Shown here: one piece after another, positions 505 to 41,260 of the stretch
Numbering within the stretch: position 1 is the first letter of the stretch
Layout of the letters: every line of letters starts with the position of its first letter
From: Spirochaetota bacterium
GTDB taxonomy: Bacteria; Spirochaetota; Spirochaetia; SPDA01; JAJSAL01
NCBI GenBank assembly: GCA_024274705.1
Contig: JAJSAL010000151.1
Span: forward strand, 19,857 to 83,856
Length of the DNA stretch: 64,000 nt
Direction: 5' to 3'
Made by a program: the position numbers and the translations under genes
Notes under the pieces: generated by a model
What the model saw: only the letters and a program-made list of their open reading frames with translations
What the model was told of the DNA's origin: nothing
The model's database searches: none

Positions 505-537
505 CAGGGGCTGTCCTTTCGGGGTCAGCCCTTTCTT
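505..537 (+). terminator. intrinsic terminator after the YfaP-like gene
   Basis: A GC-rich hairpin (GGGCTG-TCC, TTTC loop, GGGG-TCAGCCC) is followed by CTTTCTTT. It lies 25 bases after the stop of the plus-strand gene and covers the stop codon of the convergent minus-strand URO-D gene, so it may serve both directions. Confidence 0.6.
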
Positions 538-1721
538 TCGTTAAAATTATCTATTATACAGTTCAGTTTTTCCCGGTAATAGGAAAAGTTCTCCCAGGTG
601 CAGTCCGGTGACGCGAAGTGATCCAGGTGGGGGATGTATCTTCCTTTCTGAAGAAGCTGTTTTACTATTTCCAGCTCCCCGTCGATTGCCTGTTTCCCGC
701 CGGAGCTGAACAGCACCCGTTTGTCAAAACCGCCCAGCACCTGGAACTCCGGAAAACCTTTACGTATGCGGAGGAGATCGTTTCCGGCGGCCCGTTCGAA
801 GGGATACATACCGGTAACCCCGGTTTCTGCGATAAGGGGAACCAGGTCCTCCACGTACCCGTCGCTGTCGGTAAGGATGATGTCCACTCCGGACTCCAGG
901 GCGAACCCGACCATCTGTTTGTACCTGGGCGTAAGAAATTCCCTGAAATGGTCCGGGGAGATCAGGGAGCCCTGTTTACCCGCCATATCTTCCCAGATGA
1001 GAATGCAGTCCACCTTCACGTCCCGGAGGATCCTGTCGTAATAGCGGAGGAGAAAGTGCAGGAACGTGTCGCACATGTCGTGGATCATGTCCGGCTGATC
1101 GTACAGGGCGATGAGATAACCGGTAACACCCATGATCTGCCTGGGAAATCCTAGAAACCCTCCCACAGTACCTCCTAAGCGGATGGGGAAATCCCTCTCT
1201 TCAAGCCTTTCGGCGATACCGTCCCAGCCCGGGGGAAGCCTCTTTTCGATGGTGGACGGGTGGTAGTACTCCTTGTACTCGTTCCAGGAGTTCCAGTCTT
1301 TTACCGGACTCTCGAGCTCCATGGGGAGGGAACCCATGGAGACGTCATTTTTACACAGCACCCCGTAGGCGTCCCGGTAGAGCACATGGGTATCCGTTTT
1401 CTCGATGATCTCCTCTTCGAACATGGGGCTGTAGTCCACGGGGAACTTGGTAAGGTACGGGTCCAGGCCGAACACGGGCTGGACGTTCCTGTCACCTGCT
1501 TTCTCCATATCCTTCCCGATATTCCTGTTCGCCATGACGGCGATGCCGTCGGAGTAATCTTCCGGTACCGGTTCCCGTACTTCAAGTCCCTGTTCAAACC
1601 AGGCGCGTACCGTACCTGCCCAGTATCCGAACTCAACTTTCGGGACCTGTACCTCCGGAGTATACTCTCCGGGGTTCATACGCATCACTGAGAGAAATTT
1701 TTCTCTTGCATCGAGTGCCAT
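525..1721 (-). CDS. URO-D family protein (not HemE)
   Basis: About 398 residues with the uroporphyrinogen decarboxylase/methyltransferase TIM-barrel pattern: N-terminal MALDAREKFLSVM, a central WEDMAGKQGSLISP segment and a C-terminal GGFDKR. The RQAGRY substrate motif of HemE is absent. Where corrinoid methyltransferases of the family carry a zinc-binding HxCG, this protein reads TDSDG, so zinc-thiolate chemistry is unlikely. It shares EDMAGK, ERAAG and GG-x-DKR with the protein at 17607, so these two form one subfamily. I chose the ATG at 1721; the ORF track extends to a TTG at 1730. It directly follows the URO-D gene at 1731 and should be translated from the same mRNA. Function unknown; a carbohydrate-linked role is inferred from context. 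Confidence 0.75.
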   Translation of the reverse strand: MALDAREKFLSVMRMNPGEYTPEVQVPKVEFGYWAGTVRAWFEQGLEVREPVPEDYSDGIAVMANRNIGKDMEKAGDRNVQPVFGLDPYLTKFPVDYSPMFEEEIIEKTDTHVLYRDAYGVLCKNDVSMGSLPMELESPVKDWNSWNEYKEYYHPSTIEKRLPPGWDGIAERLEERDFPIRLGGTVGGFLGFPRQIMGVTGYLIALYDQPDMIHDMCDTFLHFLLRYYDRILRDVKVDCILIWEDMAGKQGSLISPDHFREFLTPRYKQMVGFALESGVDIILTDSDGYVEDLVPLIAETGVTGMYPFERAAGNDLLRIRKGFPEFQVLGGFDKRVLFSSGGKQAIDGELEIVKQLLQKGRYIPHLDHFASPDCTWENFSYYREKLNCIIDNFNERKG

Positions 1722-1730
1722 GATGCACAA

Positions 1731-2843
1731 CTAGTACCGGCCGTATTTGTGTACCGCATTGATCATGGTGATGAAATTTTCATGGGGTATGTAGTTTACA
1801 ACACTGTGGCTGGACGCCGCTTCCCACCGGCCTCCTCCTTTCATCATCACTTCACAGTGGGCCTTCACATCATTCTCCACGTCTTCCGTGGTTCCCCGTA
1901 CCAGGGGATACTCGATGTCGATATTTCCGGAAAGGGTAACCCGGTTCCCGTACCGTTTCTTGTATTCACGGTAATCGCACCCGGATGGATCCATGGGGTT
2001 GATGCAGTTGATGCCCATATCGATAAGCATGTCCATCGCCTGGTCCAGTTTGCCGTCTGAATGAAACTTGACGGGGATCCCCGCATCGAGGGCAGGCTGA
2101 ATAATCCTCTCATACGAAGGGCGCCAGATCTTCCAAAAAATGTCCGGAGGTATAAACATACCGGTGTTGAAGGCAAAATCGTCTGCAACAAAGAGAATAT
2201 CCACGCCTTCCGCAATTGCACGGCGGTGAAGCTCTTCGTAGAAATCCGCCGATTTCGATATCAATTCTTCCAGGAACTCCTGGTCTTCTAAAGACATGAT
2301 CATACAGTCGTGCATACCGATGACGAACTCGTACAGAGTCTGAAAAAGACACCCGGAAAGCATAACCACCCCTATTTTCGTCCCCTCTACCGCTTTCCTG
2401 TATTCCCGGACATACCGGAGAACGTGTTCCAGTTCCGGTTCACCCGGCCATATCACCCTCTCCAAATCCTTCCTGGATTTCAGGCTCTTGTCATACATGA
2501 AATCAACGGTTCCGTCCTCTTTTTTCTGCTTGATCGGTGTCCAGAGGGCTTCCAGGGCGATGGCATCCTGACCTATGACGTTGCACAGATTGATATAATC
2601 TTCCGGGTACATGGGCCTTATGTCCGCACTCGTTTCTTCAGCACCTTTTGCGATGTCGCCGCCGACACTGAGAGTATTACCCGCAGGCTTACCCAGGATC
2701 TTTTCCACATGCTGATCTTCGATGAGCACCTCGAAATTCGGTACCCTGTCGGTCTTCTCCCCCCGGTAAGCGGCTTTAAGCCGTTCAATATCCGGACCGG
2801 CTGCCAGAGGTTCGAATTCCTGTGTATTAACAGTATTTGCCAT
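1731..2843 (-). CDS. URO-D family protein, first gene of a two-gene operon
   Basis: A 370-residue member of the uroporphyrinogen decarboxylase/MtaA superfamily. I place the start at the ATG at 2843 because GGAGG sits just upstream; the ORF-track extension to 2882 overlaps the promoter. Visible family features are R-x-D-R-V-P-N-F-E near residue 40, VADDFAFNTGMFIPP mid-protein and VKFHSDGK, where an HxCG zinc motif would stand in methyltransferases. HSDG keeps the His but replaces Cys by Asp. It lacks the HemE RQAGRY motif. The second URO-D gene begins at its stop codon. Control is probably by an AraC-family activator through the box at 2905-2940. Confidence 0.75.
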   Translation of the reverse strand: MANTVNTQEFEPLAAGPDIERLKAAYRGEKTDRVPNFEVLIEDQHVEKILGKPAGNTLSVGGDIAKGAEETSADIRPMYPEDYINLCNVIGQDAIALEALWTPIKQKKEDGTVDFMYDKSLKSRKDLERVIWPGEPELEHVLRYVREYRKAVEGTKIGVVMLSGCLFQTLYEFVIGMHDCMIMSLEDQEFLEELISKSADFYEELHRRAIAEGVDILFVADDFAFNTGMFIPPDIFWKIWRPSYERIIQPALDAGIPVKFHSDGKLDQAMDMLIDMGINCINPMDPSGCDYREYKKRYGNRVTLSGNIDIEYPLVRGTTEDVENDVKAHCEVMMKGGGRWEAASSHSVVNYIPHENFITMINAVHKYGRY

Positions 2844-2880
2844 GAGCATCCTCCTTGCCTTCTGTTTTACGCGTATGTGC

Positions 2881-2909
2881 ATTGTACCATGATAAATCTG
2901 TTATAAAAT
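2881..2909 (-). promoter_or_regulatory. promoter of the URO-D pair (weak -35)
   Basis: On the minus strand TACAAT occupies 2886-2881, 37 bases before the chosen start. The hexamer 17 bases upstream (ATTTTA) is a poor -35, as expected for an activator-dependent promoter. The AraC-type box lies immediately upstream. Confidence 0.45.
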
Positions 2910-2940
2910 GCACAAAAAAGTAAAAATGATACAGATTATG
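2905..2940. promoter_or_regulatory. AraC-type box, copy A (shared with the rhamnose locus)
   Basis: A 36-base element starting AAAATGCACAAAA and ending GATACAGATTATG matches the element at 54766-54801 at 31 of 36 positions by eye. It contains a direct repeat AAAATG at 2905 and 2923, 18 bases apart, as expected for two AraC-family half-sites. It lies directly upstream of the -35 region of the URO-D operon. Binding by the 54909 or 58369 regulator is inferred. Confidence 0.55.
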
Positions 2941-2961
2941 AACTCTGTCTTTTCCCTGCAA

Positions 2962-3978
2962 TTAAAACTCCCCTACCAAATTCCGTATTTCACCGGCGAT
3001 CCGCTCCGGCTGCGGTATGTAGAACTTTTCCATCGGCGGGGAAAACGGAGCCGGCGTGTTAGGCGCTGCGATCCTCCGGATCGGGGCAAGGAGATAATCA
3101 GGGATCCTCTCTGCCACCTGCATGCCGATTTCCGCGCCCAGGCCGCTCTGTTTGGGTGATTCCTCCACCACCGCCAGCCTGCCGGTTTTTTTAACCGAAC
3201 CAATGATAAGATCGATATCCAGGGGCCAGAGGGTCCTGGGATCGATCACTTCCACGTTGATTCCTTCCTGGGAAAGGGTTTCCGCAGCCTGCAGAGAATA
3301 ATGCATCATCAGGAGGTTCGCCACGATGGTAACGTCCGAACCTTCCCTCCGGATAATTCCCTTCCCGATAGGCACGATGTAATCCTCATCGGGTATTTCG
3401 GAAGAGGCATCCAGGGTTCCTGCTTCCTGCCTGATGCCCTTGGAACCGTAGAGACGCTTGTGCTCGAATATCAGCACCGGGTCGTCGTCCCGGACAGCCG
3501 CCCGGAGGAGTCCCATGGCGTCGTAAGCAGTGGCAGGGGCAACGACCTTGATACCGGGACAGCCGATAAAATAAGGTTCCAGGTTCTGGGCGTGCTGCGA
3601 CCCCCTTCCGGTGACGCCCACAGGTGCCCGCATAACCACCGGCATGGTGAGCTTACCGCCGGACATGTAGCGCATCTTTGCTATCTGGTTTACCACCTGG
3701 TCCATGCAGCACAGGAGAAAGTCCCCGTACTGAACGTCTGCGATAGGGCGCATGCCCATGGCACCGGCACCGCAGGCCATACCCATGATAGCGATCTCAG
3801 AGATCGGGGTGTCGATAATCCGGTCCCGGAAATCCTTCTCCAGTCCCAGGGTTACCGTAAAGGCTCCCCCGTATCCCCCGGGAATACCGATATCCTCCCC
3901 TATGCAGAACACGGCCTCGTCCCGCTCCATCTCGCCGTGAATAGCAGTACGCAGTGCTTCGGTTATACTCATCCTCAT
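2962..3978 (-). CDS. 2-oxoacid dehydrogenase E1 beta subunit (AcoB/PdhB-like)
   Basis: 338 residues, the usual length for the beta subunit of a heterotetrameric thiamine-diphosphate E1. The start MSITEALRTAIHGEM, the FCIGEDIGIPGGYGGAFTVT stretch, the DTPISEIAIMGMACGAG motif and the C-terminal transketolase-like domain (VVEESPKQSGLGAEI) are all family signatures. It overlaps E1-alpha by four bases, so subunits are translationally coupled. With E1-alpha and E2 next door it should oxidatively decarboxylate a 2-oxoacid or cleave an acetoin-like compound in the cytoplasm. No E3 (dihydrolipoamide dehydrogenase) is encoded in the window. Substrate unknown. Confidence 0.88.
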   Translation of the reverse strand: MRMSITEALRTAIHGEMERDEAVFCIGEDIGIPGGYGGAFTVTLGLEKDFRDRIIDTPISEIAIMGMACGAGAMGMRPIADVQYGDFLLCCMDQVVNQIAKMRYMSGGKLTMPVVMRAPVGVTGRGSQHAQNLEPYFIGCPGIKVVAPATAYDAMGLLRAAVRDDDPVLIFEHKRLYGSKGIRQEAGTLDASSEIPDEDYIVPIGKGIIRREGSDVTIVANLLMMHYSLQAAETLSQEGINVEVIDPRTLWPLDIDLIIGSVKKTGRLAVVEESPKQSGLGAEIGMQVAERIPDYLLAPIRRIAAPNTPAPFSPPMEKFYIPQPERIAGEIRNLVGEF

Positions 3979-4979
3979 CTCGGCACCTCACAGGTTACGT
4001 ACAGGTCTTCGTAGGTATCTTCAGGTTTCGGCTCTTCGCTGGTCTGGCCGAACAGGATCGCATCATCCACAGCTCTTTCCACCTCGTCTTTTATCGATTG
4101 TATTTCTTTCTCATCAGCCACGCCGTACTCCAGCAGGATCTTTTCACATGCCGGAACAGAATCCTTTCCTTTCCAGTGCTCTTTTTCTTCTTTGGTCATG
4201 TAATTGTTCGGGTCCCGCCGGGAATGGCCGCAGAGACGAAAGGTCTTCAGTTCCAGAAGGGTCGGCCCTTCCCCTTTCCGGGCCAGGTCCACTGCTTCCC
4301 TGGCGTGTTGGTACACTGCAAATACATCCATACCATCGGCAATATCACTCCGCATTCCGTAGGCCGCACCCCGGTCCGCGATGTCCTTGATTTTCATCAC
4401 CCGTTTTACACTGGTGGAAGCACCGTAAAGGTTGTTTTCACACACGAACAGGGCGGGCAGATCGTAGACTGCCGCTGCGTTCAGCCCCTCGTGGAAGGCC
4501 CCTTCGTTGGATGCGCCGTCACCGAAAAAACTCACTGCAATGCGCTTTTCCTTCCGGATTTTGAAGGCCATGGCCATGCCCGCAATGATAGGGATGTTTC
4601 CTCCGACAATGGCTATAGCCGGAAGCATTCCTAAGCTTAAGTCTCCGACATGCATGGATCCGCCTTTCCCCTTACAGCACCCGGTAACTTTACCGTACAG
4701 CTCTGCAGCGACAGCATTAAGAGTGATTCCCCGGGCGATGGCGTGGCCGTGGGGTCTGTGGGTAGACGCAATAACGTCATCATCTTCGAGAGCGGCGGTT
4801 ACGCCCACGGCGCAGGCTTCCTGCCCGATATATTGATGCACCGTACCGGGCATCTTCCCTTCCAGGAAGAGGTACCGGATCTTCTCTTCGAATACCCGGA
4901 TTTCCAGCATCCGGCGGTACATGCCTTGAACCTTATCCTTCCCCAATACATCGATTATCTTTTTATAGTCTGTTTTCAC
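3975..4979 (-). CDS. 2-oxoacid dehydrogenase E1 alpha subunit (AcoA/PdhA-like)
   Basis: 334 residues with the E1-alpha signatures HQYIGQEACAVGV near residue 50, STHRPHGHAIARG, and the thiamine-diphosphate/Mg motif FFGDGASNEGAFHEGLNAAAVYDLP. LCGHSRRDPNNY near residue 240 is the phosphorylation-loop-like region. The start is a GTG overlapping the E2 stop, with AGGAG upstream. It pairs with E1-beta (four-base overlap) in the operon E2-E1alpha-E1beta. Similarity in layout to acetoin dehydrogenase (AcoABC) is clear, but the substrate may instead come from the RuBisCO-like protein encoded upstream. Confidence 0.88.
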   Translation of the reverse strand: MKTDYKKIIDVLGKDKVQGMYRRMLEIRVFEEKIRYLFLEGKMPGTVHQYIGQEACAVGVTAALEDDDVIASTHRPHGHAIARGITLNAVAAELYGKVTGCCKGKGGSMHVGDLSLGMLPAIAIVGGNIPIIAGMAMAFKIRKEKRIAVSFFGDGASNEGAFHEGLNAAAVYDLPALFVCENNLYGASTSVKRVMKIKDIADRGAAYGMRSDIADGMDVFAVYQHAREAVDLARKGEGPTLLELKTFRLCGHSRRDPNNYMTKEEKEHWKGKDSVPACEKILLEYGVADEKEIQSIKDEVERAVDDAILFGQTSEEPKPEDTYEDLYVTCEVPR

Positions 4980-6268
4980 GACATCTCCTCTTCAATAATG
5001 TTCTTCAGCTCCCCTAAGAATTCGGCTCCCTGTACCCCGTTCACTACGCGGTGGTCGAAACTTCCCGTTACAATTACAGCCGGACGGATCCTCATGGTAT
5101 CATCGTCGCCTATCACCATCTTCTTCTCCATCCTTCCGATGGCCAGGATACCCGCCTGTTTCGGGCTGATAATGGCGAAGAACTCATCCACCGGATACAT
5201 CCCCAGGTTGCTCACTGTAAAGGTTCCCCCTTTCATGTCTTCCTTCTGAAGTTTTCCGTTCCGTACCTTTCCCGCCAGCCGGGAGATCCCTTTACCTATC
5301 TCACGAATATCCTTCGTGAGTGGGTCCCGAACAACCGGCACATAGAGTTCATCCCCTGAAGCAACGGCCAGGGCAATCCCGATGTTCCCGTACAGGTGTA
5401 CCGTGTTGTCCTGGAAATATCCATTCAGCCTGGGATGCCTGGACAGGGCAATCGCAATTGCTTTCACCAGGAACGCCGTTACGGATACCCTTTTTCCGTC
5501 GGGATAGGGATGATCTGCCCTGTGCTGCAGCAGATGGTCCATGTAGACCGTTGTTTTAAGATAGTAATGAGGTATCTCGTTCTTACTCTTTGAAAGATTG
5601 AACGCGATGGCCTGCTGGTTCCCGGTAAGCCCTATCCCGGCTTCATGAACGCCGACAGGAGCAGGCGCACCCGATCGATACCCTTCAAGATCGTCCCTGG
5701 TGATCAGCCCCCCGGGTCCTGTACCTTTCACGCTGCTTAAGTCGATACCATGCTTTTGAGCCAGGTTCCGTACGATTGCAGTGACCTTTACTCCGGAAAC
5801 CGGTGACGTTACCCGGCCGAATAAGTCCTTACCGGTAACGGTACCGCCCAGTCCGGTCCCAACCACTTCCTCAAGGTTACATCCCCTTTTAGCCGCAATA
5901 TCCTGGGCTACAGGCGAGAGGGTTACCGGCGCGACTGATGCCGGTTGCCGCTGAAGGTGCAGCGGCTTAAGAGGTACCGGTTGTACTTCCGCCGGAACTG
6001 CCGTTCCCTCTCCTCTAGGCACCTCTTCCCCCTCAGCTCCGATAATTGCAATGGCCGTCCCAGCCTGGATGACCGTGTCCGGTTCCACCAGGATTTTCAG
6101 CACCCTGCCGGAAGCAAAACTTTCCACTTCCATGGAGACCTTGTCTGTTTCCACTTCGCAGACCGGGTCTCCTTTTTGTATTGTGTCCCCTTCTTTTACA
6201 AGCCAGCCGACGAGTTTTACCTCGTCGGTGGTCTGGCTCAACGGGGGCATAACGATTTCAGTTGCCAT
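4976..6268 (-). CDS. dihydrolipoamide acyltransferase E2 with one lipoyl domain
   Basis: 430 residues. Residues 1-80 form a lipoyl domain with CEVETDKVSMEVES, where the Lys carries lipoate. A linker follows, then two peripheral-subunit-binding-like segments (SPVAQDIAAKRGCNLEEV and AIVRNLAQKHGIDLSSV), each ending GTG-GG-x-T or GTGPGG-x-T. The rest is the catalytic acyltransferase domain, with SFDHRVVNGVQGAEF at the active site; the His is present but the usual Asp of HRxxDG is Asn. It starts the E2-E1alpha-E1beta set and follows the RuBisCO-like gene by 15 bases. Two binding-like segments are unusual for a protein with a single lipoyl domain. Confidence 0.86.
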   Translation of the reverse strand: MATEIVMPPLSQTTDEVKLVGWLVKEGDTIQKGDPVCEVETDKVSMEVESFASGRVLKILVEPDTVIQAGTAIAIIGAEGEEVPRGEGTAVPAEVQPVPLKPLHLQRQPASVAPVTLSPVAQDIAAKRGCNLEEVVGTGLGGTVTGKDLFGRVTSPVSGVKVTAIVRNLAQKHGIDLSSVKGTGPGGLITRDDLEGYRSGAPAPVGVHEAGIGLTGNQQAIAFNLSKSKNEIPHYYLKTTVYMDHLLQHRADHPYPDGKRVSVTAFLVKAIAIALSRHPRLNGYFQDNTVHLYGNIGIALAVASGDELYVPVVRDPLTKDIREIGKGISRLAGKVRNGKLQKEDMKGGTFTVSNLGMYPVDEFFAIISPKQAGILAIGRMEKKMVIGDDDTMRIRPAVIVTGSFDHRVVNGVQGAEFLGELKNIIEEEMS

Positions 6269-6283
6269 GGTTAGTTACCGCCC

Positions 6284-7627
6284 TTATAGCTTGAACTCCT
6301 TGGGATGGAACTTCGGGTCCACCCGGAGCCAGGGAGTCGTAGGCCGTTCGAAGTAACCCCACTGTTCAAGGGCGCTTCGAAGTGCCTTGTTCTCCGGTTT
6401 CCGGGCATATTCGTCGATAGGTATATCGTTCATAACCGCGTATATCGCCTGCTGCCAGGCCTGGGCGCCGGCGGTGTAGCCGTCTTTGTGACCCAGCATG
6501 CCGCCGCCTGCGGGAATAATGGTATCCACACCGAATTCCGGGATGATGATGGGAGCCAGCCCCGGGTACATGCCTGCTGCAGGCATGGGCCACATCTTCC
6601 TGAGGTGAAAAAGGTGAGCCTGGCCTAGGTGCTGGCACCTTAAGCCCTCTTCCAGGCTCACCATTGGAATACTGGACCAGAAGGAGGGAGTCAGCGTATT
6701 GTCTGCTCCGCAGAGGCGGATGAGCTTGGTGAATACCGGCCAGGAGATGCTCTTCATTGCGGCTATCATGTGCGAATTGTGCACCATGACCGGAACGTTG
6801 ATTGCAGGATCCTCCGTTATTGCCCGTATTGCCGACAACCCCACGGAATAGGTGATGAGGAGTCCGTTCGCCCCTAGTTCCACCGCCCGCCTGGCTTTTT
6901 CGTGCATCTTTTCCACTTCGTCGGTGATGGAACAGTAATAGACCATCTTCTTCTTACCGGTCTTCGCGGAAGCCCGTTCTATGGCGTCCATCACATATTT
7001 CAGCCTGTCTTCATACTTGTTGTTGTAGCTGTCGGAGAGCATTTCGTCGTCTTTACACAGGTCGGCGCCTCCCATGGCTGTTTCGTACACCTGCGCTCCT
7101 GTCTGCTCCGGGGTCATCCCCATTTTCGGCTTGATGATGTGGAGAGAAAGGGGGCGGTCATAGACATCCAGCAGTTCCCGGATACCGGAAACACCGAATT
7201 TAGGACCCTTGAAGTTCTTCACCATATTTTCCGGAAGTGTGACGTCCAGAAGCCGTAAATCCTTCGAATATGCGAAGCAGTTGCCCGCTATGGATAGAAG
7301 CGCCATGGGAATGTTGTTGTGCCAGGCAGCGATAGGGAACGCCAGTTGCACGACACAGGCCTTTGTATAGGCCTCGTCCACGGGCAGTTCATAGTAACCA
7401 ACCACCTTTCCGGAAAGATTGAGCCTCACCTCTTCGGTGTCTTCCTTTACCTTCTGCCAGGACCCGGTGGATCCTTCGATTGCCATTGCCTCCACCAGCT
7501 TGAAGTGATCGATAAAATCCACCCCGGGAAGGGTGTCCTTCATGTAGTAGGTAGCAACGATGTTGTCTTTCAAGTCGATGCCGTCCAGGGCGTTCTCAAA
7601 GATAATGGGATCGTGAATGCGTGTCAT
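6284..7627 (-). CDS. RuBisCO-like protein (form IV type)
   Basis: 447 residues, the length of a RuBisCO large subunit. By eye the N-domain has EGSTGSW (E60 kept, T65 to Ser) and AGNCF (N123). The barrel has IIKPKMG (K175 and K177), GGADLCKDDEM (carbamylated K201, D203, E204) and a phosphate-binding GGGMLGH. In contrast RLCGADNTLTPSFWSS replaces H327 and the loop-6 Lys334, VHNSH replaces R295, and AAGMY replaces SGGIH around S379. It should therefore bind Mg and enolise a sugar-phosphate-like substrate but not fix CO2. GGAG is present at the start. It lies between an RpiR gene and E2-E1 genes. The substrate cannot be named; the methionine-salvage and apionate-type families are candidates to exclude. 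Confidence 0.85.
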   Translation of the reverse strand: MTRIHDPIIFENALDGIDLKDNIVATYYMKDTLPGVDFIDHFKLVEAMAIEGSTGSWQKVKEDTEEVRLNLSGKVVGYYELPVDEAYTKACVVQLAFPIAAWHNNIPMALLSIAGNCFAYSKDLRLLDVTLPENMVKNFKGPKFGVSGIRELLDVYDRPLSLHIIKPKMGMTPEQTGAQVYETAMGGADLCKDDEMLSDSYNNKYEDRLKYVMDAIERASAKTGKKKMVYYCSITDEVEKMHEKARRAVELGANGLLITYSVGLSAIRAITEDPAINVPVMVHNSHMIAAMKSISWPVFTKLIRLCGADNTLTPSFWSSIPMVSLEEGLRCQHLGQAHLFHLRKMWPMPAAGMYPGLAPIIIPEFGVDTIIPAGGGMLGHKDGYTAGAQAWQQAIYAVMNDIPIDEYARKPENKALRSALEQWGYFERPTTPWLRVDPKFHPKEFKL

Positions 7628-7664: not shown

Positions 7665-8510
7665 TTATTTTACCCGTAGATTACGGTTAACGATCTTTTC
7701 TATGCCCCTGATCTCTTCGATCCCGGCGTTATCGGTTTTGGACGCCAGTATGATATAGAGAGCACGTACCAAGGTAAGCTGGGCCACCATGGAATTGGAC
7801 TGGGCGAAATGTACCTGCCGCTCATGGCACGCAGTAAGCAGGATACAGTCCGACAGCTTTGCCAGGGCTGAATCTCCGTAGTTGGTCAGTGCAACGATGT
7901 ATGCTCCGTTTTGCCGGGCAAGTCCCGCCGCCTCTACCACCTGTTTCTGTCTCCCGGAATGGGAAATACAGAAAAAGACGTCGTTTTTGTGCCCGTGGCC
8001 CGCGCATACGAGCATCTCGTAGGGGTCGATAAGGGTCTTCGCCTTGTACCTGAGATGGGAAAGCTGGATCGCACCAAGCTGCCCTATCCTCCCGGATCCG
8101 CCTAAACCGAGGAAATAGAGCATATCGCACCGGCAAATCCTTTCCGCCACACCGGATACTGCAGTGAAATCCACAACGCCTTCAGTCGCCTGCAGATTGG
8201 TAACAGCTTCGGAAAATACTTTCCTGATGCTTAAAGAAGGTTCATCATCCCGGTTAAAAATAGGAAGAATCTGTTCCGGCTCGTAATGTAAATCCCGGGA
8301 AAAGGTGATTTTAAACCGCTTGAAGCTGTCATACCCTAAACGCTTGCAGAACCGTGATATCGATGCGACTGACGTGCCGATGGCACCTGCGATTTCTTCT
8401 ATAGAATTATTAAGCCCTTCGAAATCGATATCCAGAAAGTAATCCGCAATCTTTTTCTGAACGGGTTTCAATTCATTGTAGATCACTTTGATCTCTGTCA
8501 TGATAGACAT
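7665..8510 (-). CDS. RpiR-family transcriptional regulator (HTH + SIS)
   Basis: 281 residues. The N-terminal helix-turn-helix (residues 10-80) includes EIAGAIGTSVASISRFCKRLGYDSF, the RpiR recognition region. Residues 125-255 form a sugar-isomerase (SIS) effector domain with FLGLGGSGRIGQLGA and FCISHSGRQKQVVEAA, which normally binds a phosphosugar. It heads the minus-strand operon containing the RuBisCO-like protein and E2/E1 genes, so it probably controls them and itself. A second RpiR gene heads the related operon at 39160 and its promoter shares an operator-like motif. The ATG at 8510 has no visible Shine-Dalgarno and lies six bases after the candidate -10. Confidence 0.88.
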   Translation of the reverse strand: MSIMTEIKVIYNELKPVQKKIADYFLDIDFEGLNNSIEEIAGAIGTSVASISRFCKRLGYDSFKRFKITFSRDLHYEPEQILPIFNRDDEPSLSIRKVFSEAVTNLQATEGVVDFTAVSGVAERICRCDMLYFLGLGGSGRIGQLGAIQLSHLRYKAKTLIDPYEMLVCAGHGHKNDVFFCISHSGRQKQVVEAAGLARQNGAYIVALTNYGDSALAKLSDCILLTACHERQVHFAQSNSMVAQLTLVRALYIILASKTDNAGIEEIRGIEKIVNRNLRVK

Positions 8511-8561: not shown

Positions 8562-8578
8562 ATGTAAATTATTTTCAC
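8562..8578. promoter_or_regulatory. RpiR-type operator candidate
   Basis: ATGTAAATTATTTTCAC matches the inverted-repeat form ATGTAA-N5-TTWCAY found twice at the other RpiR promoter (40031 and 40064). HexR, an RpiR-family member, is known to recognise a TGTAA-N5-TTACA-type palindrome, so the assignment is plausible. It lies just upstream of the -35. Confidence 0.4.
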
Positions 8579-14583: not shown

Positions 14584-15369
14584 CTACCCCTCCAGCTTAT
14601 AAACTTCCAACGCGTTATCACGCAGGATTTTCCTTTTAAACGATGTGCTTATATCCGCCAGAAATACACGGGTCAAATGGGAGCGGAGATCCATCCATGG
14701 ATAATCTGTTCCAAAGAGTATCTTATTTTCCGGAACCTGCCGTTCCATATTTTCGAAGTACTGATAACAATAGATATCGCCGCCGAAATCCATATATACA
14801 TTTTCATATTCGTTAACCATTCGAATTGCCTCGAACCTTCCGGTCCCCCGGCCGCCGGAGTGACCCAGCACAAACCGTACGCCCGGATATTTCTTTACAT
14901 ACTTCTCAAATTTCTCAGGTGTGGAGAGTACCTGGGAAGGATTGTAGCTGGACACACTCCAGGTATGGGCAACAATGGGAATATCAAAATCCGATGCAAT
15001 TTTCCACACAGGGTCATAACCCTCATCATCAGCCGGGGTGTTGTTAAATGAGGGATGAATCTTGATTCCCTTGAAACCTGCCTGAGACACGGCTTTTTTT
15101 AATATCTCAATATCTTCCTCCCATCGACGCGGATCATAAAACCCGCAATAAAAAATCCTGCCCCCGGATTCTTCGAATTCCTGTTGTGCTTTTTCAAGTT
15201 CTATGGACTGATAACCATGGAGAGTCCGCATTGAGCATAAATTGATTGAATAGTTAACCTGTAACTGGTCCATACGCCTGAGCATAGCCTGCGCGTCAAT
15301 TTCGGGAGAAAAAAAGATATTCGGGAATCCAGTGTGCGCATGAGCGTCGATAATGAAAAGGTCTTTCAT
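14584..15369 (-). CDS. amidohydrolase-2 family metal-dependent hydrolase
   Basis: 261 residues. The N-terminal IDAHAHTG carries the HxH metal motif, a barrel His occurs in IVAHTW, and the C-terminal KILFGTDYPWMD carries the metal-binding Asp and the typical GTDYP signature. This group includes lactonases, hydratases and decarboxylases acting on carboxylic acids or lactones. It overlaps the preceding amidohydrolase-fold gene by four bases. With the kinase and SDR in the same operon, hydrolysis of a sugar lactone is a reasonable but unproven role. Confidence 0.8.
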   Translation of the reverse strand: MKDLFIIDAHAHTGFPNIFFSPEIDAQAMLRRMDQLQVNYSINLCSMRTLHGYQSIELEKAQQEFEESGGRIFYCGFYDPRRWEEDIEILKKAVSQAGFKGIKIHPSFNNTPADDEGYDPVWKIASDFDIPIVAHTWSVSSYNPSQVLSTPEKFEKYVKKYPGVRFVLGHSGGRGTGRFEAIRMVNEYENVYMDFGGDIYCYQYFENMERQVPENKILFGTDYPWMDLRSHLTRVFLADISTSFKRKILRDNALEVYKLEG

Positions 15370-34850: not shown

Positions 34851-35423
34851 TCAACGTGTTTCATGTTCTTGGGCGGAAAAAAACCGAAAACAGTGCATGC
34901 CTCCGGCCCGGGCCGCTTCGACACCGGCATCGGAATCTTCGATAACCACGCACCGGGAGGGAGACCGGTCCATCCTTTTTGCCGCTTCCAGAAAGAGGTC
35001 CGGGTGGGGTTTTCCTTTTTCAACATCCTCCGATGATACGATGATGTCCACAGGAATATCGAACCGCTCTACCACGGGCAGTATGGATGGTTTAGAACTT
35101 CCCGACGCGACAGCCACAGGATGCCCTGCATTTTTTAGCGACCTGAAAAGTTCGATATTACACGGTATGGACTCAACGAGATCGAAATGGTCCTTTGCGA
35201 TCTCGTTTTTTCTCCGGTATATGGCTTCCACATCCCTATCCACCCCGGTGTTACGGCAGAAGTACGCTATCTGTTCTCTCCCGGTCATGCCCGCCTGACG
35301 GTAGAACTGCCCCCTGTCTATGGGAACGCCCGCTTCTTCCAGGGCCCGGCTGTAAGCGGAAAAATGGAGGGGCATGGTATTCACCAGGACTCCGTCAAAG
35401 TCGAAGATATACCCTATTTCCAC
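34851..35423 (-). CDS. HAD-superfamily phosphatase/phosphomutase (beta-PGM type)
   Basis: 190 residues from a GTG at 35423 with GGAGGTGAT upstream; the ORF-track start at 35522 lies inside the E1-beta gene and is rejected. Motif I is FDFDGVLVNT with both Asp residues, motif II VASGSS, motif III KGKPHPD and motif IV VIEDSDAGVEAA. A small helical cap between motifs I and II marks the beta-phosphoglucomutase group. It dephosphorylates or isomerises a sugar phosphate. It overlaps the E1-beta stop by ten bases. Confidence 0.84.
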   Translation of the reverse strand: MEIGYIFDFDGVLVNTMPLHFSAYSRALEEAGVPIDRGQFYRQAGMTGREQIAYFCRNTGVDRDVEAIYRRKNEIAKDHFDLVESIPCNIELFRSLKNAGHPVAVASGSSKPSILPVVERFDIPVDIIVSSEDVEKGKPHPDLFLEAAKRMDRSPSRCVVIEDSDAGVEAARAGGMHCFRFFSAQEHETR

Positions 35424-36445
35424 TCCATCACCTCCAGGACGGCCTTTTCGATATCCCCAAGTCCGGGTACTGCATCCGTTTCCATGGCAGGAGCGAAGGG
35501 AATCGGCGTGTCCACGGCACATACCCGTTTCACCGGGCTTTTAAGATAGAAAAGCCCCTGTTCCGCCATAAGCGCTCCGATCTCCGCGGCCGCCCCTGCG
35601 GTGACAACTTCTTCCATGGCAATGACCACACGTCCTGTTTTGGAGACAGAGACGAGAATAGTTTCTCTATCCAGGGGAACCAGGGTACGAAGGTCTAACA
35701 CTTCCACATCGATTCCTTCCCTCCCGAGATGTTGTGCCGCTTCAAGGGCCAGGTGTACCATAAGGCTCGTGGCAATAATGGTTACATCCTTCCCGGCACG
35801 TTTGACATCAGCTTTGCCGAAAGGGATAGTGTACTCTTCGTCCGGTGCCGGAGCATACACGTTGCTTAAAGAGTCCACAGCGCTTTTCGCCTTACCTCCC
35901 GGGGAAGCGCCGCCGTAGAGCATCTTGTGTTCCAGGAACACGACCGGGTTTTCGTCCCTAACGGCAGTCTTGAGCAGCCCTTTCGCATCGTAGGGAGTGG
36001 AAGGAAGGACAACTTTAAGACCGGGACAGTGCATAAACCACCCCTCCAGGCATTGGGAATGCTGGGCGGCCCTTCCGGTAGCACCCATGGGGGCCCGAAG
36101 CACCAAGGGAACAGAGACCTGCCCCCCCATCATGGAGCGTATTTTCGCGGCCTGGTTGCAGAGCTGGTCCATGCCGCAGGCGATAAAATCGTTGAACTGC
36201 ATTTCCGCAACAGGAATAAGACCGGTCATGGCAGCCCCCACGGCAGCGCCTATGATAGCTGCTTCGGAGATGGGGGTATCCCTGACCCGTTTCTCGCCGA
36301 ACCGCTGATAAAGCCCTTCGGTAACCCTGTATGCTCCGCCGAATACGCCGATATCTTCTCCTAAAAGAACGACCCGGCTGTCCCTTTCCATCTCTTCTAA
36401 AAGCCCCTGACGCAGGGCCTGTACGATGTTTTTTTTCATTGTCAC
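35414..36445 (-). CDS. 2-oxoacid dehydrogenase E1 beta, second complex
   Basis: 343 residues. IVQALRQGLLEEMERDSRVVLLGEDIGVFGGAYRVT, DTPISEAAIIGAAVGAA, FNDFIACGMDQLCNQAAKIRSMMGG and VVIAMEEVVTAGAAAEI are all E1-beta signatures, parallel to the protein at 2962. Its E1-alpha partner upstream carries an amber stop, so the complex may be inactive in this strain, or E1-beta may work with the intact E1-alpha at 3975. Encoded in the order RpiR-E2-cyclase-E1alpha-E1beta-HAD. Confidence 0.87.
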   Translation of the reverse strand: MTMKKNIVQALRQGLLEEMERDSRVVLLGEDIGVFGGAYRVTEGLYQRFGEKRVRDTPISEAAIIGAAVGAAMTGLIPVAEMQFNDFIACGMDQLCNQAAKIRSMMGGQVSVPLVLRAPMGATGRAAQHSQCLEGWFMHCPGLKVVLPSTPYDAKGLLKTAVRDENPVVFLEHKMLYGGASPGGKAKSAVDSLSNVYAPAPDEEYTIPFGKADVKRAGKDVTIIATSLMVHLALEAAQHLGREGIDVEVLDLRTLVPLDRETILVSVSKTGRVVIAMEEVVTAGAAAEIGALMAEQGLFYLKSPVKRVCAVDTPIPFAPAMETDAVPGLGDIEKAVLEVMEWK

Positions 36446-36456
36446 AGCTCCATCTG

Positions 36457-37410
36457 TTATTTGAATACGTAGTCCCTGTACGCTGAAGGATCAGGGTCCG
36501 GGCCGGCTTCCGCAAAAGCGACGGATTCTTCTATCACCTTCTCCGCTTCCCCTTCGATACTGTCCAGCAGGTATTCCTGTATGTTCAGTTCCTCTATAAG
36601 AATGTTTCGATAGTACGATATGGGATCCCGCTCTTTCCACTCCTCCAGTTCCTCTTTGTCCCGGTACGTGGCGGGCTCGAAACGGGAGTGCCCCCTGAAC
36701 CGGTAGGTCTTGCATTCCAGGAGCGTCGGCCCCTTTCCAGCCCTGGCCCTTTCGATACTTTCACCGGCTTTGGCATAGACATCCCGGACATCCATCCCAT
36801 CGGCAATGATCCCGGGGATACCGTAAGACCCGGCTCTCTCCGCAATATGTTCGATATTGGTCACCCTCCGGTAGTGGGTGGAAAACCCGTAGAGATTATT
36901 TTCACACACGAATACGACCGGCAGCTGCCACACCGAAGCGAGATTGAGGGCTTCGTGAAAAGCCCCCTCGTTGGCCGCGCCGTCACCGAAAAAAGCAACA
37001 GCCACGTTGCCGTTTTCCATGTAACTACAGGTCCACCCGGCGCCGACAGCTATGGGGATGCCCCCGGCAACGATGGCGTTTGCCCCGAGCATGCCCACGC
37101 TGAAATCCGCTATATGCATGGAACCGCCCATTCCCCTGCAGCAGCCGGTGCTCTTCGCGAACATTTCCGCCATAACCGCGTTTATATCCGCCCCCTTGGC
37201 GATGCAGTGACCGTGCCCCCGGTGTGTACTGGTGATGTAATCTTCCTTCGAGAGATGGGCACACACACCGGCTGCCACTGCCTACTGCCCATTGTACTGG
37301 TGCATACTCCCGGGCATTGCCCTGGTGGAAAAGAGATAAAAGAGTTTTTCCTCGAATTTTCTCATCAATACCATGGTTTTATAGAGCCCTAAGGCAGTAT
37401 CTTCGTTCAT
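36457..37410 (-). pseudogene. 2-oxoacid dehydrogenase E1 alpha, second complex, interrupted by an amber codon
   Basis: The frame from ATG 37410 (GGAGG just upstream) reads MNEDTALGLYKTMVLMRKFEE to GSMHQYNGQ. It then meets TAG at 37284-37282 and continues AVAAGVCAHLS to the end. The intact paralogue at 3975 has GQEACAVGV, so the stop replaces the conserved Glu codon (GAG to TAG is one base). Downstream motifs are whole: STHRGHGHCIAKG, FFGDGAANEGAFHEALNLASVWQLP and FRGHSRFEPATY. The ORF track lists only the part from GTG 37278. Read through, it would have 317 residues. A nonsense mutation or a sequence error is likeliest. Confidence 0.82.
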
Positions 37411-38079
37411 CTATTCCTCCTCTAAAGCGACAAGCCGCACCGGACACGCGTCGAGACCTTGTATGCTTAAGGCCAGGATAAACAGGGTGAACCGCTCTTT
37501 TTTGAGTGTATCCAGGTGCGCAGCGAATTCGATAATCGGAATATCCCTGTCCATCAGGAACTGGTGGTTCGGCTGGTTCGGTACCCCTTTCAGCTCTATG
37601 CCGGATGCATCAGACCCGACAAGATTGATGTTCTTCTCGTTTACCAGCCACTTTACCGCGTCATGGTCAAGGATAGGCCGGTCGTGGGAACGCCCTGTCC
37701 GGTAGTACCGTGCACAGTTGAAATTGAACAGGACGGAATCCCCGGGAAGGATCATTTTCTCTATGTCCAGGAGTTCATCCGGTGTTACGAACTCTCCCGG
37801 CTGTTTATGAGAAAAATCGAGAAGCACACAATCGGAAATCAGCCTTTTCAGCGGGAAGCGGGAAGCGTCCATCCCTCTTCGGTTGTGATGGTAGGGAAAT
37901 TCGATATGGGTTCCACAATGGGAAAACATGCGTATCTCCTGTAATATGTACCAGGTGTCCTTGTCCTTTTTATACTGAGGGTACAGCTCGGTGGTGTCGT
38001 AAGTTTCCAGTTCCAGGTTATACTCTTCTTTTCCCGGAATAAGCTGGTGGCTTAAGTCTAGGAATCTTCCAGAAATCAT
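37411..38079 (-). CDS. cyclase-family metal-dependent hydrolase
   Basis: 222 residues from the ATG at 38079, which overlaps the E2 stop as ATGA. The family motif HxGTHxExPxHH appears as HCGTHIEFPYHH near residue 55, and GSDASGIELKG plus DIPIIEFAAHLD complete the cyclase/kynurenine-formamidase fold. Members hydrolyse or dehydrate amides, lactones and cyclic acids using Zn or Mn. It lies between E2 and E1-alpha genes, which is an unusual insertion in such an operon, so it may prepare the 2-oxoacid or handle a product. Substrate unknown. Confidence 0.82.
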   Translation of the reverse strand: MISGRFLDLSHQLIPGKEEYNLELETYDTTELYPQYKKDKDTWYILQEIRMFSHCGTHIEFPYHHNRRGMDASRFPLKRLISDCVLLDFSHKQPGEFVTPDELLDIEKMILPGDSVLFNFNCARYYRTGRSHDRPILDHDAVKWLVNEKNINLVGSDASGIELKGVPNQPNHQFLMDRDIPIIEFAAHLDTLKKERFTLFILALSIQGLDACPVRLVALEEE

Positions 38080-39155
38080 CGTTCCGCCCATTCCATGGTT
38101 CCCATTTCAAAGGTTTCCATCCTGGTTTTAAAATCCTTTAAAAACCTGGCGGCATACGCGCCGTTGATGATACGGTGGTCCACCGTCAGCGTAACGGTCA
38201 TAACCGGCCGGACAACCGGTTCATTTTCCAGAACCACCGTCGCTTCTCTTATCGATCCGAAGGTCAGGGCAGCTGCCGCACCCGGGGGAATGATGGCATC
38301 GAAGGCGGTAATGCCGTACATGCCGAGGTTGCTCAAAAGAAGGGTAAACCCTTTCAGTTCGTCAGCAGAAACACTCCCCCGGGACACCCCGGCAATACAA
38401 TCTCCCAGGTCGGCATCGATCTCTTTAAGGCTTTTACCCCGGGGATCGGGCAGGACAGGGGTATAGAGATCATCATGTACGGAAACAGCATAGCCGACCC
38501 CCGGGGATGCGGATTCCCTGATTCCTGATTCATCCATCACCCAGTGGAACTTAGGATAACCGGGAAGCACTTCCACGGATATCTTGATAAACAGGGCATC
38601 GAAGCGGATACCCCGCTCCTTTACCTTTTTCGCCCGGGTCATATCGATTTCAGCCGTAAGGTGGATCACCGGGGTCTCCCTGTGGCTCACCGACACCGCC
38701 CTGGCAACGGCGGACTGGTTTTTAGAAAGGAGGACGTCCGCAGGTTTTCTCTGGGGAGATATCCCGCCTCCATGAGCTTCAATGTCGGATACGGTAATGG
38801 TATGGTTAGGTCCCGACCCGTGTACCCGGGACAGGTCGATTCCCATCTCTGTCGCGCGTTTCCGGGCCCGGGGCATGATCCCGGGTGCAGCAGGTTTCCC
38901 TTTTTCGATCTCTTCCCCGGAAGCTCCGATGTACCCAAGGATATCTCCGGGTGTTATCACATCTCCTTCCTGTACAATTCGGGCGATCAGGTACCCCCCG
39001 GTGTGGGCTTCGATCTCCAATACTCCTTTTTGGGCCTCTATTTCCGCTACAAGCTCCCCGGCACGGACAGGTTCCCCTTCCTTCTTGTGCCAGTGTACAA
39101 GGGTAATCTCGTCCCCCAGTTCACCTGATCCGGGAACTATGATCTGTTCCGCCAT
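38076..39155 (-). CDS. dihydrolipoamide acyltransferase E2, second complex
   Basis: 359 residues. The lipoyl domain has EIEAQKGVLEIEAHTGG with the lipoyl Lys, a short binding domain follows (MPRARKRATEMGIDLSRVHGSGP), and the catalytic domain ends VDHRIINGAYAARFL. The Asp of HRxxDG is Asn, as in the other E2 of the window. It is about 70 residues shorter than the first E2, with one binding segment instead of two. It starts four bases after the RpiR stop and overlaps the cyclase gene by four bases. Confidence 0.84.
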   Translation of the reverse strand: MAEQIIVPGSGELGDEITLVHWHKKEGEPVRAGELVAEIEAQKGVLEIEAHTGGYLIARIVQEGDVITPGDILGYIGASGEEIEKGKPAAPGIMPRARKRATEMGIDLSRVHGSGPNHTITVSDIEAHGGGISPQRKPADVLLSKNQSAVARAVSVSHRETPVIHLTAEIDMTRAKKVKERGIRFDALFIKISVEVLPGYPKFHWVMDESGIRESASPGVGYAVSVHDDLYTPVLPDPRGKSLKEIDADLGDCIAGVSRGSVSADELKGFTLLLSNLGMYGITAFDAIIPPGAAAALTFGSIREATVVLENEPVVRPVMTVTLTVDHRIINGAYAARFLKDFKTRMETFEMGTMEWAER

Positions 39156-39159
39156 TGTT

Positions 39160-40032
39160 TCAATTTCTCCTTTTTGTCTGTTTCCGGCGCAGCAGATTGT
39201 CCGTAAGGATGCTGATGCCCTTAAGGTCGTATAACGGCGTCCGGTACCTGGCTGTTAAAAGGTACAGGGCATCGATAATACACAGCAGGGCCACCCTGCC
39301 GGACAGGGCAGCTACTCTCACCGCTGTTTCCGGAAAAGATGTATAGAAATTATACCTGCATACCCGGGACAGGGGTGCTCCGGGATAGTTGGAAATACCC
39401 ACCGTGAGGGCACCCTGCTCCCGGGCCATGCGCGCGGATTCAACGGTGAGGATGGTCTCACCGGAATGCGAAAGGGCTATGACCCCGGTATTTACATCAG
39501 CAGCGGCAGCGTTAAAGATCATCTCTGCAGGATCTGTGTATGCAGCCGCCTGGAACCCCAGGAACCTGAACCGCATCGCCGCATCTCCCGCGAGGAAGCC
39601 TGAACTGCCGACCCCGAAAAAAACGATCCTGCTCTTTTCCGTGAGCTTCCTGACGCATTCCACCACCTCATCGGGATCGAGAAGGGCCAGGGAGTCCTTA
39701 AGGCTCTGCCGGTTTCCCTGGAACGTTTTTCTAAGAACGTCCCGGTCCGTGTCGTCCGGGCCTATTCCCTGGAAAAGCGCATCCTCTTCCGCCGAACCGG
39801 TCCGGGCAAGATCCACCTTAAATGCCCTTAAACCAGGGTACCCCAGCTTTTTCACGAACCTGCTGACCGTTGCAACACTACTGCCGCTGTTTTCCGCAAT
39901 CTGTTCCACCGTCAGCAGGGGTACCTGGCCGGCATGAGCCGAGATATAACCGGCAACCCGTTTTTCCGCTTTCGGCATACGGTGATGCATACCTTCAATT
40001 CTCGCCAGTATGGTGTTCACAGAAATCTCCAT
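39160..40032 (-). CDS. RpiR-family transcriptional regulator, second copy
   Basis: 290 residues. The helix-turn-helix contains VEQIAENSGSSVATVSRFVKKLGYPGLRAFK; the SIS domain has FFGVGSSGFLAGDAAMRF and GVIALSHSGETILTVESA. It heads the operon E2-cyclase-E1alpha-E1beta-HAD-mutarotase. Two near-palindromic operators, one inside its promoter spacer and one over its start codon, indicate strong autorepression relieved by a sugar phosphate. The N-terminal helix region parallels the RpiR at 7665. Confidence 0.89.
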   Translation of the reverse strand: MEISVNTILARIEGMHHRMPKAEKRVAGYISAHAGQVPLLTVEQIAENSGSSVATVSRFVKKLGYPGLRAFKVDLARTGSAEEDALFQGIGPDDTDRDVLRKTFQGNRQSLKDSLALLDPDEVVECVRKLTEKSRIVFFGVGSSGFLAGDAAMRFRFLGFQAAAYTDPAEMIFNAAAADVNTGVIALSHSGETILTVESARMAREQGALTVGISNYPGAPLSRVCRYNFYTSFPETAVRVAALSGRVALLCIIDALYLLTARYRTPLYDLKGISILTDNLLRRKQTKRRN

Positions 40033-40047
40033 GTAAATATATTACAT
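40031..40047. promoter_or_regulatory. RpiR operator 1, over the start codon
   Basis: ATGTAAATATATTACAT is a perfect ATGTAA-N5-TTACAT inverted repeat. It contains the start codon of the RpiR gene on the minus strand. The core TGTAA-N5-TTACA matches the known operator type of the RpiR-family protein HexR. Confidence 0.7.
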
Positions 40048-40058
40048 TCTAAAACAGT

Positions 40059-40087
40059 ATAATATGTAACTATATTTCATTTGTCAA
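40059..40087 (-). promoter_or_regulatory. promoter of the second RpiR/E2/E1 operon
   Basis: On the minus strand TTGACA (40087-40082), a 17-base spacer and TATTAT (40064-40059). Confidence 0.72.
40064..40080. promoter_or_regulatory. RpiR operator 2, inside the promoter spacer
   Basis: ATGTAACTATATTTCAT is a near-palindrome of the same form as operator 1, filling the space between -10 and -35. The two centres are 33 bases apart, about three helical turns, so two dimers could bind on one face. Confidence 0.65.
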
Positions 40088-40271: not shown

Positions 40272-41260
40272 TTATGTACCCCCCAAAAGGGCTTCGCGGA
40301 TCATCCTCGATGCAGCCATGGTGTTCCCTTCGGTAATGATCCCTTTGATCCGTTCCCTGCCCATGGTTTCCAGCAGGTTGTGGAGGCCCTGGATCCAGCC
40401 GATGCTTTCGGAGGCTGCTTCCAGGCCGTCCTCGCGGTAAGGGAAAATATCCAGGGCGTACCATCCGTCATAACCGATCCGGTCCAGCCAGTACAGGGTT
40501 TCCAGTAGTTCGATGGTATGCACGGACCCGGCGGTCATATCATCGTCCCAGTGCCGCCAGTTGTCGTTGAAGTGCATGTATTTAAGCTTATCCCCGAAAT
40601 AATGGAGGAGAGCCAGTGATTCCGCAGGATGTTCGTAGGCTTCCAGGACGTGACCAATATCGACCATGGCACCTACATTCGGTTTATTCACTTTTTCGAT
40701 CAGGAGGAGGGTCTTTCCCACGGTACTGACGGTACAGTGGGTGCGGGGTTCTTTGGGTTTGTATTCGATAACAAGGTCTACCCCGGGAAGATGTTCCGCA
40801 CATTCGATGGTCCCGTCGATGATGCGGTCCCACTGAAGGGGATAATCAGCGGCAAAAGGGTAGTCGTATCCGTCCTGTCCGAACCATAAGTCCACAACGG
40901 TACAGTCCAGCTCTTTTGCCCAGTCCATCGAGTTTTTCACGGTCTCCACCGCATCTTTCCTGACCGCCGGATCATTCGAAGAAAAGGAACCTTCCCCCAC
41001 TTAGCGGATGCCCAGATATCCGGAGTAACACACGTCACCTTTAAGCCGGCATCCCGGACCTGTGAGCGGATCGCCGTTAGATTATCATCATTCACATGCC
41101 ATTTGCCCACCAGTTCCACGCCGGACAAACCGGGAATACCGGCTGCAGCCTGTATAAGCTCTTCCGTCGAACGACGGGGTCCGTATCCGTCCAGCACATA
41201 CCTGTCCGCACAGCCGTTAAAGGTGTTGATATTCGCAGAAAATTTCAGTTTATACTCCAT
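40272..41260 (-). pseudogene. TIM-barrel sugar isomerase/epimerase with a one-base frameshift
   Basis: Two overlapping track ORFs make one protein. The 5' part reads MEYKLKFSANINTFNGCADR to DIWASAKWGK and the 3' part GSFSSNDPAVRKDAVETVKN to the end. Adding one G to the GGGGG run at about 40996-41000 restores KWGEGSFSSND and a 329-residue product. The restored protein parallels the one at 23855 (IEYKPKEPRTH, MVDIGH, MHFNDNWRHWDDD, WYALDIFPYR). All barrel metal-site motifs are intact, so the shift is recent or a homopolymer sequencing error. Confidence 0.82.

Follow-up and report, generated by a model that had tools for sequence, protein, structure and literature searches.

Structurally studied RpiR-family regulators are tetramers of two DNA-binding dimers (PMC12713135), and solved structures exist for RpiR relatives. 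For E. coli MurR, the tetramer has been proposed to bridge two adjacent sites with 17 bp between them and a total span of 47 bp (PMC12713135). Pseudomonas RccR recognises a 15-bp palindrome, TGTAGT-N3-ACTACA, which occurs as a pair at aceE, a pyruvate dehydrogenase gene, and is also found at the RccR gene itself (PMC5489143). Streptococcus pneumoniae NanR (SpNanR) shows a dimer-tetramer equilibrium, and mutation of its serine loop S-x-S-x-x-T abolishes ligand binding (PMC12713135). For a spirochaete RpiR regulator, no operator was found in the literature searched.

The window, i.e. the whole stretch of 64,000 nucleotides of a Spirochaetota draft genome analysed here, carries two RpiR-family genes, RpiR1 and RpiR2, each associated with an operon for 2-oxoacid dehydrogenase subunits, and a predicted operator pair, O1 and O2, ahead of RpiR1. 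The features concerned are the following:

40082-40087, minus strand, predicted promoter -35 element TTGACA of RpiR1 (consensus match only)
40064-40080, minus strand, O1, forward ATGTAACTATATTTCAT, gene strand ATGAAATATAGTTACAT
40059-40064, minus strand, predicted promoter -10 element TATTAT of RpiR1 (consensus match only)
40031-40047, minus strand, O2, forward ATGTAAATATATTACAT, gene strand ATGTAATATATTTACAT, a near-perfect palindrome
39160-40020, minus strand, RpiR1 regulator (HTH_6 and SIS domains by Pfam), with the probable start GTG 40020 placed by alignment with the G002 orthologue
38076-39155, minus strand, 2-oxoacid dehydrogenase E2 (lipoyl, E3-binding and acyltransferase domains), first structural gene of the RpiR1 operon
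37411-38091, minus strand, putative cyclase (PF04199), RpiR1 operon
36457-37410, minus strand, E1 alpha, RpiR1 operon, opening at ATG 37410
35414-36445, minus strand, E1 beta, RpiR1 operon
8562-8578, minus strand, predicted RpiR2 operator, gene strand GTGAAAATAATTTACAT
7665-8510, minus strand, RpiR2 regulator (HTH_6 and SIS domains by Pfam)
2962-7627, minus strand, RpiR2 operon with RuBisCO-like protein, E2, E1 alpha and E1 beta

Comparison with described RpiR-family systems

RpiR1 and RpiR2 both score above the cut-offs for HTH_6 (PF01418; 56.0 and 46.1 bits respectively, cut-off 28.3) and for the C-terminal SIS domain (PF01380; 68.8 and 69.8 bits, cut-off 25). RpiR1 resembles MurR in being an RpiR/SIS regulator with paired sites overlapping the -35/-10 region, the 15-bp cores of O1 and O2 being 18 bp apart with a total span of 48 bp, as compared with 17 and 47 bp for MurR (PMC12713135). 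The MurR-like architecture of two sites about 32 bp apart over the promoter is thus present at RpiR1, with a distance of 33 bp and O1 in the spacer. The content of the RpiR1 operon, on the other hand, differs, and neither protein reaches the cut-off of the MurR model (NCBIfam NF012026, cut-off 408; 63.4 bits for RpiR1 and 76.2 for RpiR2). The E. coli murR-murQ gap, scanned as a positive control, held no close match to TGWAAN5TTWCA and failed in this role because MurR sites differ in sequence.

RccR shares with this locus the RpiR/SIS type of regulator, the 15-bp palindrome, the pair at a pyruvate dehydrogenase gene and the site at its own gene (PMC5489143), but its half-site is TGTAGT rather than TGWAAY, its pair is 68 bp apart and its second, 28-bp site type was not seen here. 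The first-pass annotation had assigned the operator core to the type known for HexR, an RpiR/SIS repressor. The half-site bears this out, the left half of O2 being TGTAAT and the E. coli zwf-hexR gap holding TGTAATTTTCTTACG, one mismatch from the motif. The proteins do not, since both stay below the cut-off of the HexR model (NCBIfam NF008451, cut-off 296; 104.6 bits for RpiR1 and 97.4 for RpiR2). The neighbouring genes also differ, being E2, cyclase and E1 for RpiR1 and RuBisCO-like protein, E2 and E1 for RpiR2 instead of zwf/edd/eda, and the Pseudomonas HexR consensus is TTGT-N7-8-ACAA (PMC5489143). With S. pneumoniae NanR, the likeness lies in the RpiR/SIS type, a palindromic site with a TGAAA half and the S-x-S-x-x-T spacing of the serine phosphate loop (PMC12713135), which is present in the RpiR1 SIS domain as S184-H-S186-G-E-T189 and reads S-H-S-G-R-Q in RpiR2, with Gln as the last residue where RpiR1 has T189. 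NanR differs in being an activator with one full site and one degenerate half-site (PMC12713135). The RpiR1 leader is a well-supported case of an already known type of switch, nothing new in kind.

The O1/O2 pair and the start of the RpiR1 operon

O1 and O2 are near-identical predicted binding sites whose centres are 33 bp apart, which corresponds to three helical turns; the sequences and positions of these two palindromes of one form had been given exactly by the first-pass annotation. Seven matches to the motif with at most one mismatch are present on both strands of the window compared with 0.85 expected, a number reached by none of 100 shuffled windows, and O1 and O2 together are far above chance expectation. 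The best sigma-70-like match of the region, TTGACA-N17-TATTAT, agrees with the consensus at 11 of 12 positions and is the predicted promoter. As had been claimed, one palindrome fills the gap between its two elements, the 15-bp core of O1 (40065-40079) lying entirely within the 17-nt spacer. The gene-strand sequence of the leader is TTGACA-A-ATGAAATATAGTTACAT-ATTATACTGTTTTAGA-ATGTAATATATTTACAT-GGAGATTTCT-GTG, and O2 occupies roughly +5 to +21 of the predicted transcript, taking transcription to start approximately 7 nt past the -10 element, immediately 5' of the Shine-Dalgarno sequence.

The other palindrome had been described as containing the ATG start codon. ATG 40032 does open the long RpiR1 reading frame, but it shares just 2 bases with O2 and is not preceded by a Shine-Dalgarno sequence. 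A GGAG (40030-40027) is found six bases 5' of GTG 40020, and in the alignment with the G002 RpiR1 orthologue this GTG coincides with the ATG start. GTG 40020 rather than ATG 40032 is therefore probably the start codon, and O2 would accordingly be located at the predicted start of transcription and in the leader, and not at the initiation codon.

E2 begins 4 bp past RpiR1, and in G002 both E2 and the cyclase are also located downstream of the RpiR1 orthologue. Further along the operon, the E1 alpha gene contains an in-frame TAG (37284-37282, minus strand) within the motif NGQ*AVAAG, at a position where E1 alpha subunits normally carry Glu. Pyrrolysine was considered for this codon and set aside, no pyrrolysyl-tRNA synthetase (PylS) having been found; the TAG may consequently be a nonsense mutation, an assembly error or a site of readthrough.

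Sites at the other RpiR genes and in orthologues

The draft genome (4.59 Mb in 198 contigs) was scanned with the strict 17-mer, which occurs at 7 places as compared with 1 for the reversed control pattern. Besides RpiR1 and RpiR2 the genome has one further PF01418 gene, RpiR3 on contig C195, and the strict motif stands directly upstream of all three, providing sequence evidence for an operator at the regulator's own gene. The chance of such a placement is about 2e-4 per gene, and since the pattern had been written from the RpiR1 and RpiR2 sites it is RpiR3 that constitutes the independent match. Of the seven strict sites, two are inside coding sequence and five between genes, where they adjoin RpiR genes or a sugar operon, so that the scan for matches away from RpiR and sugar genes did not refute the proposed operators. 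The broad 15-mer with one mismatch was too loose in the same genome (109 matches, 98 for the reversed control), and the extra matches of subtype motif scans were mostly inside genes.

The fifth intergenic site, ATGTAAATTATTTTCAT (G000:C123:15994; L013:5995-6011), is just beyond the window, 12 kb from RpiR2, between a ribose-type sugar ABC transporter and a divergent rhamnulokinase-like kinase with a sugar isomerase, and is flanked on both sides by promoter-like TTGACA boxes. The RpiR3 promoter (L014:5086-5260, G000:C195), TTGACATGTAAATATTATAGTATATAATG, has a half-degenerate site in its spacer, followed after 31 bp by a perfect one, and RpiR3 itself is divergent from a gene weakly similar to sulfoquinovose isomerase. 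In G002, the RpiR3 orthologue (62%) and that of the rhamnulokinase-like gene are divergently arranged, and among the sites of the former is an exact copy of the C123:15994 site on the opposite strand. Judged by this location and this identical site, RpiR3 is therefore the likeliest regulator of the rha-like divergon.

A site of the same form had also been reported at 8562, ahead of the other RpiR gene of the window. This site is real, but its layout differs from that of RpiR1 because it lies upstream of the -35 element of the likely RpiR2 promoter, TTGACG-17-TAAGAT. Its 15-bp core is identical to that of the C123:15994 site before the rhamnulokinase-like gene. No RpiR2 orthologue was found among 60 relatives (best 30%) and the RpiR2 site is consequently without orthologue support.

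Two Spirochaetes MAGs (G002 and G040) and one Verrucomicrobia MAG (L111) have an RpiR1 orthologue, with 42-45% identity, and paired sites 30-32 bp apart are kept in all three. The pairs are TGAAATAAATTTGTA / TGAAACAAAATTTCA in G002 (32 bp, the first directly after TTGACA), TGTAACAATATTTCA / TGCAATAATATAACA in L111 (32 bp) and TGTAACGGAATTACC / GGTAATTCTGTTACA in G040 (30 bp), the last being located between the single RpiR1 orthologue of that genome and a divergent, merged RuBisCO-like protein-E2-E1-isomerase operon. Operator placement in the G002 orthologue is nearly the same as that of O1, and at unrelated RpiR genes of G031 and G030 an operator fills the 17-bp spacer at the same offset. Three observations thus favour the proposal that these are RpiR operators in an autoregulatory layout: no RpiR gene of the genome lacks such a site, orthologues retain the pair, and its spacing appears helically phased. 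With this comparative support the first-pass annotation is a sound regulatory prediction, with one positional error, at the start codon, and one unsupported extension, the cross-talk between operons that is weighed below.

Spacing of the pairs, proposed repression and its rivals

In the upstream regions of 60 RpiR genes from this genome and its relatives, ATGWAAN5TTWCAT gave 4 perfect matches and 6 with one mismatch (0 and 0.3 in shuffles), and pairs 30-34 bp apart were present at 7 of 59 genes against a shuffle mean of 0.015. A second sample of 86 further RpiR genes gave 3 with such a pair (0.01 in shuffles), of which L121 was not blind, having first been met in a pattern scan, and the other two were weak, with two mismatches; it also revealed another spacing class at 20-22 bp. 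A recognisable pair of this motif is absent from most of the RpiR genes sampled. When the 145 genes were pooled, taking the best pair per gene at 18-48 bp with at most 2 mismatches in sum, the spacings were 20, 21, 21, 22, 29, 30, 30, 31, 31, 32, 32, 32, 33, 33 and 33 bp. They cluster at 20-22 and 29-34 bp, near whole helical turns, with none at 23-28 bp among the better pairs. At a period of 10.5 the vector length R is 0.78 with a mean phase of 0.0 (p ~1e-4), in a test that is post hoc, since it was prompted by the data of the second sample, on genes that are partly related; the fit is about as good for nearby periods between 10 and 12, so that 10.5 is not a measured period. These spacings could come in part from promoter geometry (a spacer site plus a start site) and from A-tract periodicity, which order-1 shuffles leave in. 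Strict paired-palindrome scans of 394 genomes of the class were too stringent (4 and 1 matches); among the 4 matches for TGAAAN5TTTCA pairs, the sole one at 31 bp is directly upstream of an RpiR gene.

Taken together, RpiR1 is likely to be a sugar-phosphate-responsive autorepressor of rpiR1-E2-cyclase-E1alpha-E1beta that acts as a tetramer on O1 and O2. One dimer would bind O1, between the -35 and -10 elements, and the other O2, over the transcription start. As both sites would be on the same DNA face, three helical turns apart, binding is expected to be cooperative and RNA polymerase to be excluded, and a phosphorylated ligand held by the serine loop of the SIS domain would be expected to release the repressor. 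The sites, their placement, conservation and phasing and their presence at all three RpiR genes are read from sequence, and from there we infer binding, repression rather than activation, tetramer bridging and ligand release; helical phasing is consistent with one tetramer bridging both sites and does not prove it.

Two independent RpiR dimers could instead occupy O1 and O2 without bridging, the spacing then reflecting only the positions of the promoter spacer and the start site. Promoter geometry would fix each of the two positions, and the two 15-bp sites used by RccR at aceE are 68 bp from each other (PMC5489143), but in the verrucomicrobial L111 the pair has a different position with respect to the promoter and still keeps the spacing of 30-33 bp, and the second class at 20-22 bp with an empty interval at 23-28 bp among the better pairs also argues against this reading, which we consider unlikely. 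Activation by RpiR1 would have precedents within the family in SpNanR (PMC12713135) and GlaR (PMC6528599). It is nevertheless highly improbable here, as a protein bound both within the -35/-10 spacer and over the +5 to +21 segment should obstruct the polymerase and a promoter so near to consensus (11/12) makes an activator unnecessary. Leaders are AT-rich and words such as TGAAA/TTTCA are cheap in them, yet an origin of the sites as chance palindromes, already disfavoured by dinucleotide and Markov controls, is scarcely credible given that all three RpiR genes have them and that they persist in orthologues of 42-45% identity.

Binding of RpiR1 and RpiR2 to each other's sites would amount to the cross-talk between the two 2-oxoacid dehydrogenase operons that had been suggested. 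The sites share the same 15-bp frame, the recognition helices are similar (SVATVSRFVKKLGY in RpiR1 and SVASISRFCKRLGY in RpiR2) and, as a weaker hint, the single RpiR1 orthologue of G040 is divergent from the merged RuBisCO-like protein-E2-E1-isomerase cluster. However, half-sites are mostly TGWAAY in the RpiR1 clade and TGWAAA at RpiR2, RpiR3 and the rha divergon, position 6 being C/T in 14 of 16 half-sites of the former and A in 10 of 10 of the latter (p = 1e-5, for half-sites that are non-independent, a position picked by eye and one degenerate RpiR3-orthologue site left out), and the RpiR2 core identically matches the rha-divergon site instead. Cross-regulation of these two operons is therefore quite unlikely, and the difference at position 6 argues for a possible overlap of RpiR2 with RpiR3 rather than with RpiR1.

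Beyond the autorepression proposed for RpiR1, we tentatively suggest, at somewhat less than even confidence, that a helically phased pair (20-22 or 29-34 bp) is common to RpiR promoters of different phyla, with the -35/-10 spacer often filled by one of the sites, the reason being that the SIS tetramer would clamp two dimers on one face of the DNA. The spacing would then be kept while the operator sequence drifts between paralogues, giving a nearly sequence-independent signature for RpiR regulons. The window supplies a concrete predicted operator pair, a phased spacing and a predicted regulon of three RpiR genes and the rha-like divergon. Should the spacing rule hold, it would be of help in assigning regulons to the many RpiR proteins that are still uncharacterised and would speak for tetramer bridging as a usual mode of repression in the family. 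The phased spacing is the part worth following.

Several observations lie beside these results. Besides a RuBisCO-like protein, the RpiR2 operon (525-7627, minus strand) encodes two URO-D-family proteins and the complete series E2-E1alpha-E1beta; a cluster of like composition in G040 (L108), RuBisCO-like protein-E2-E1, also includes an isomerase homologous to 40272-41000 of the window, and both possibly belong to one unknown sugar-acid pathway. Within the window, ATGAAAAGGTCTTTCAT (15353-15369), a perfect match to the relaxed motif with no RpiR gene adjoining, is found at the start of an open reading frame (14584-15369, minus strand). Another RpiR subgroup in the class (L147, L032 and L036) has ATGAATATTTNTTTCAT-like sites at the promoter, which suggests a TGAATA half-site variant. 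Finally, an intergenic TGAAATTATATTTCA at L129:1501-1515 (G000:C105:17482), ahead of a class-III aminotransferase-like gene, is a possible further site of the RpiR1 type.
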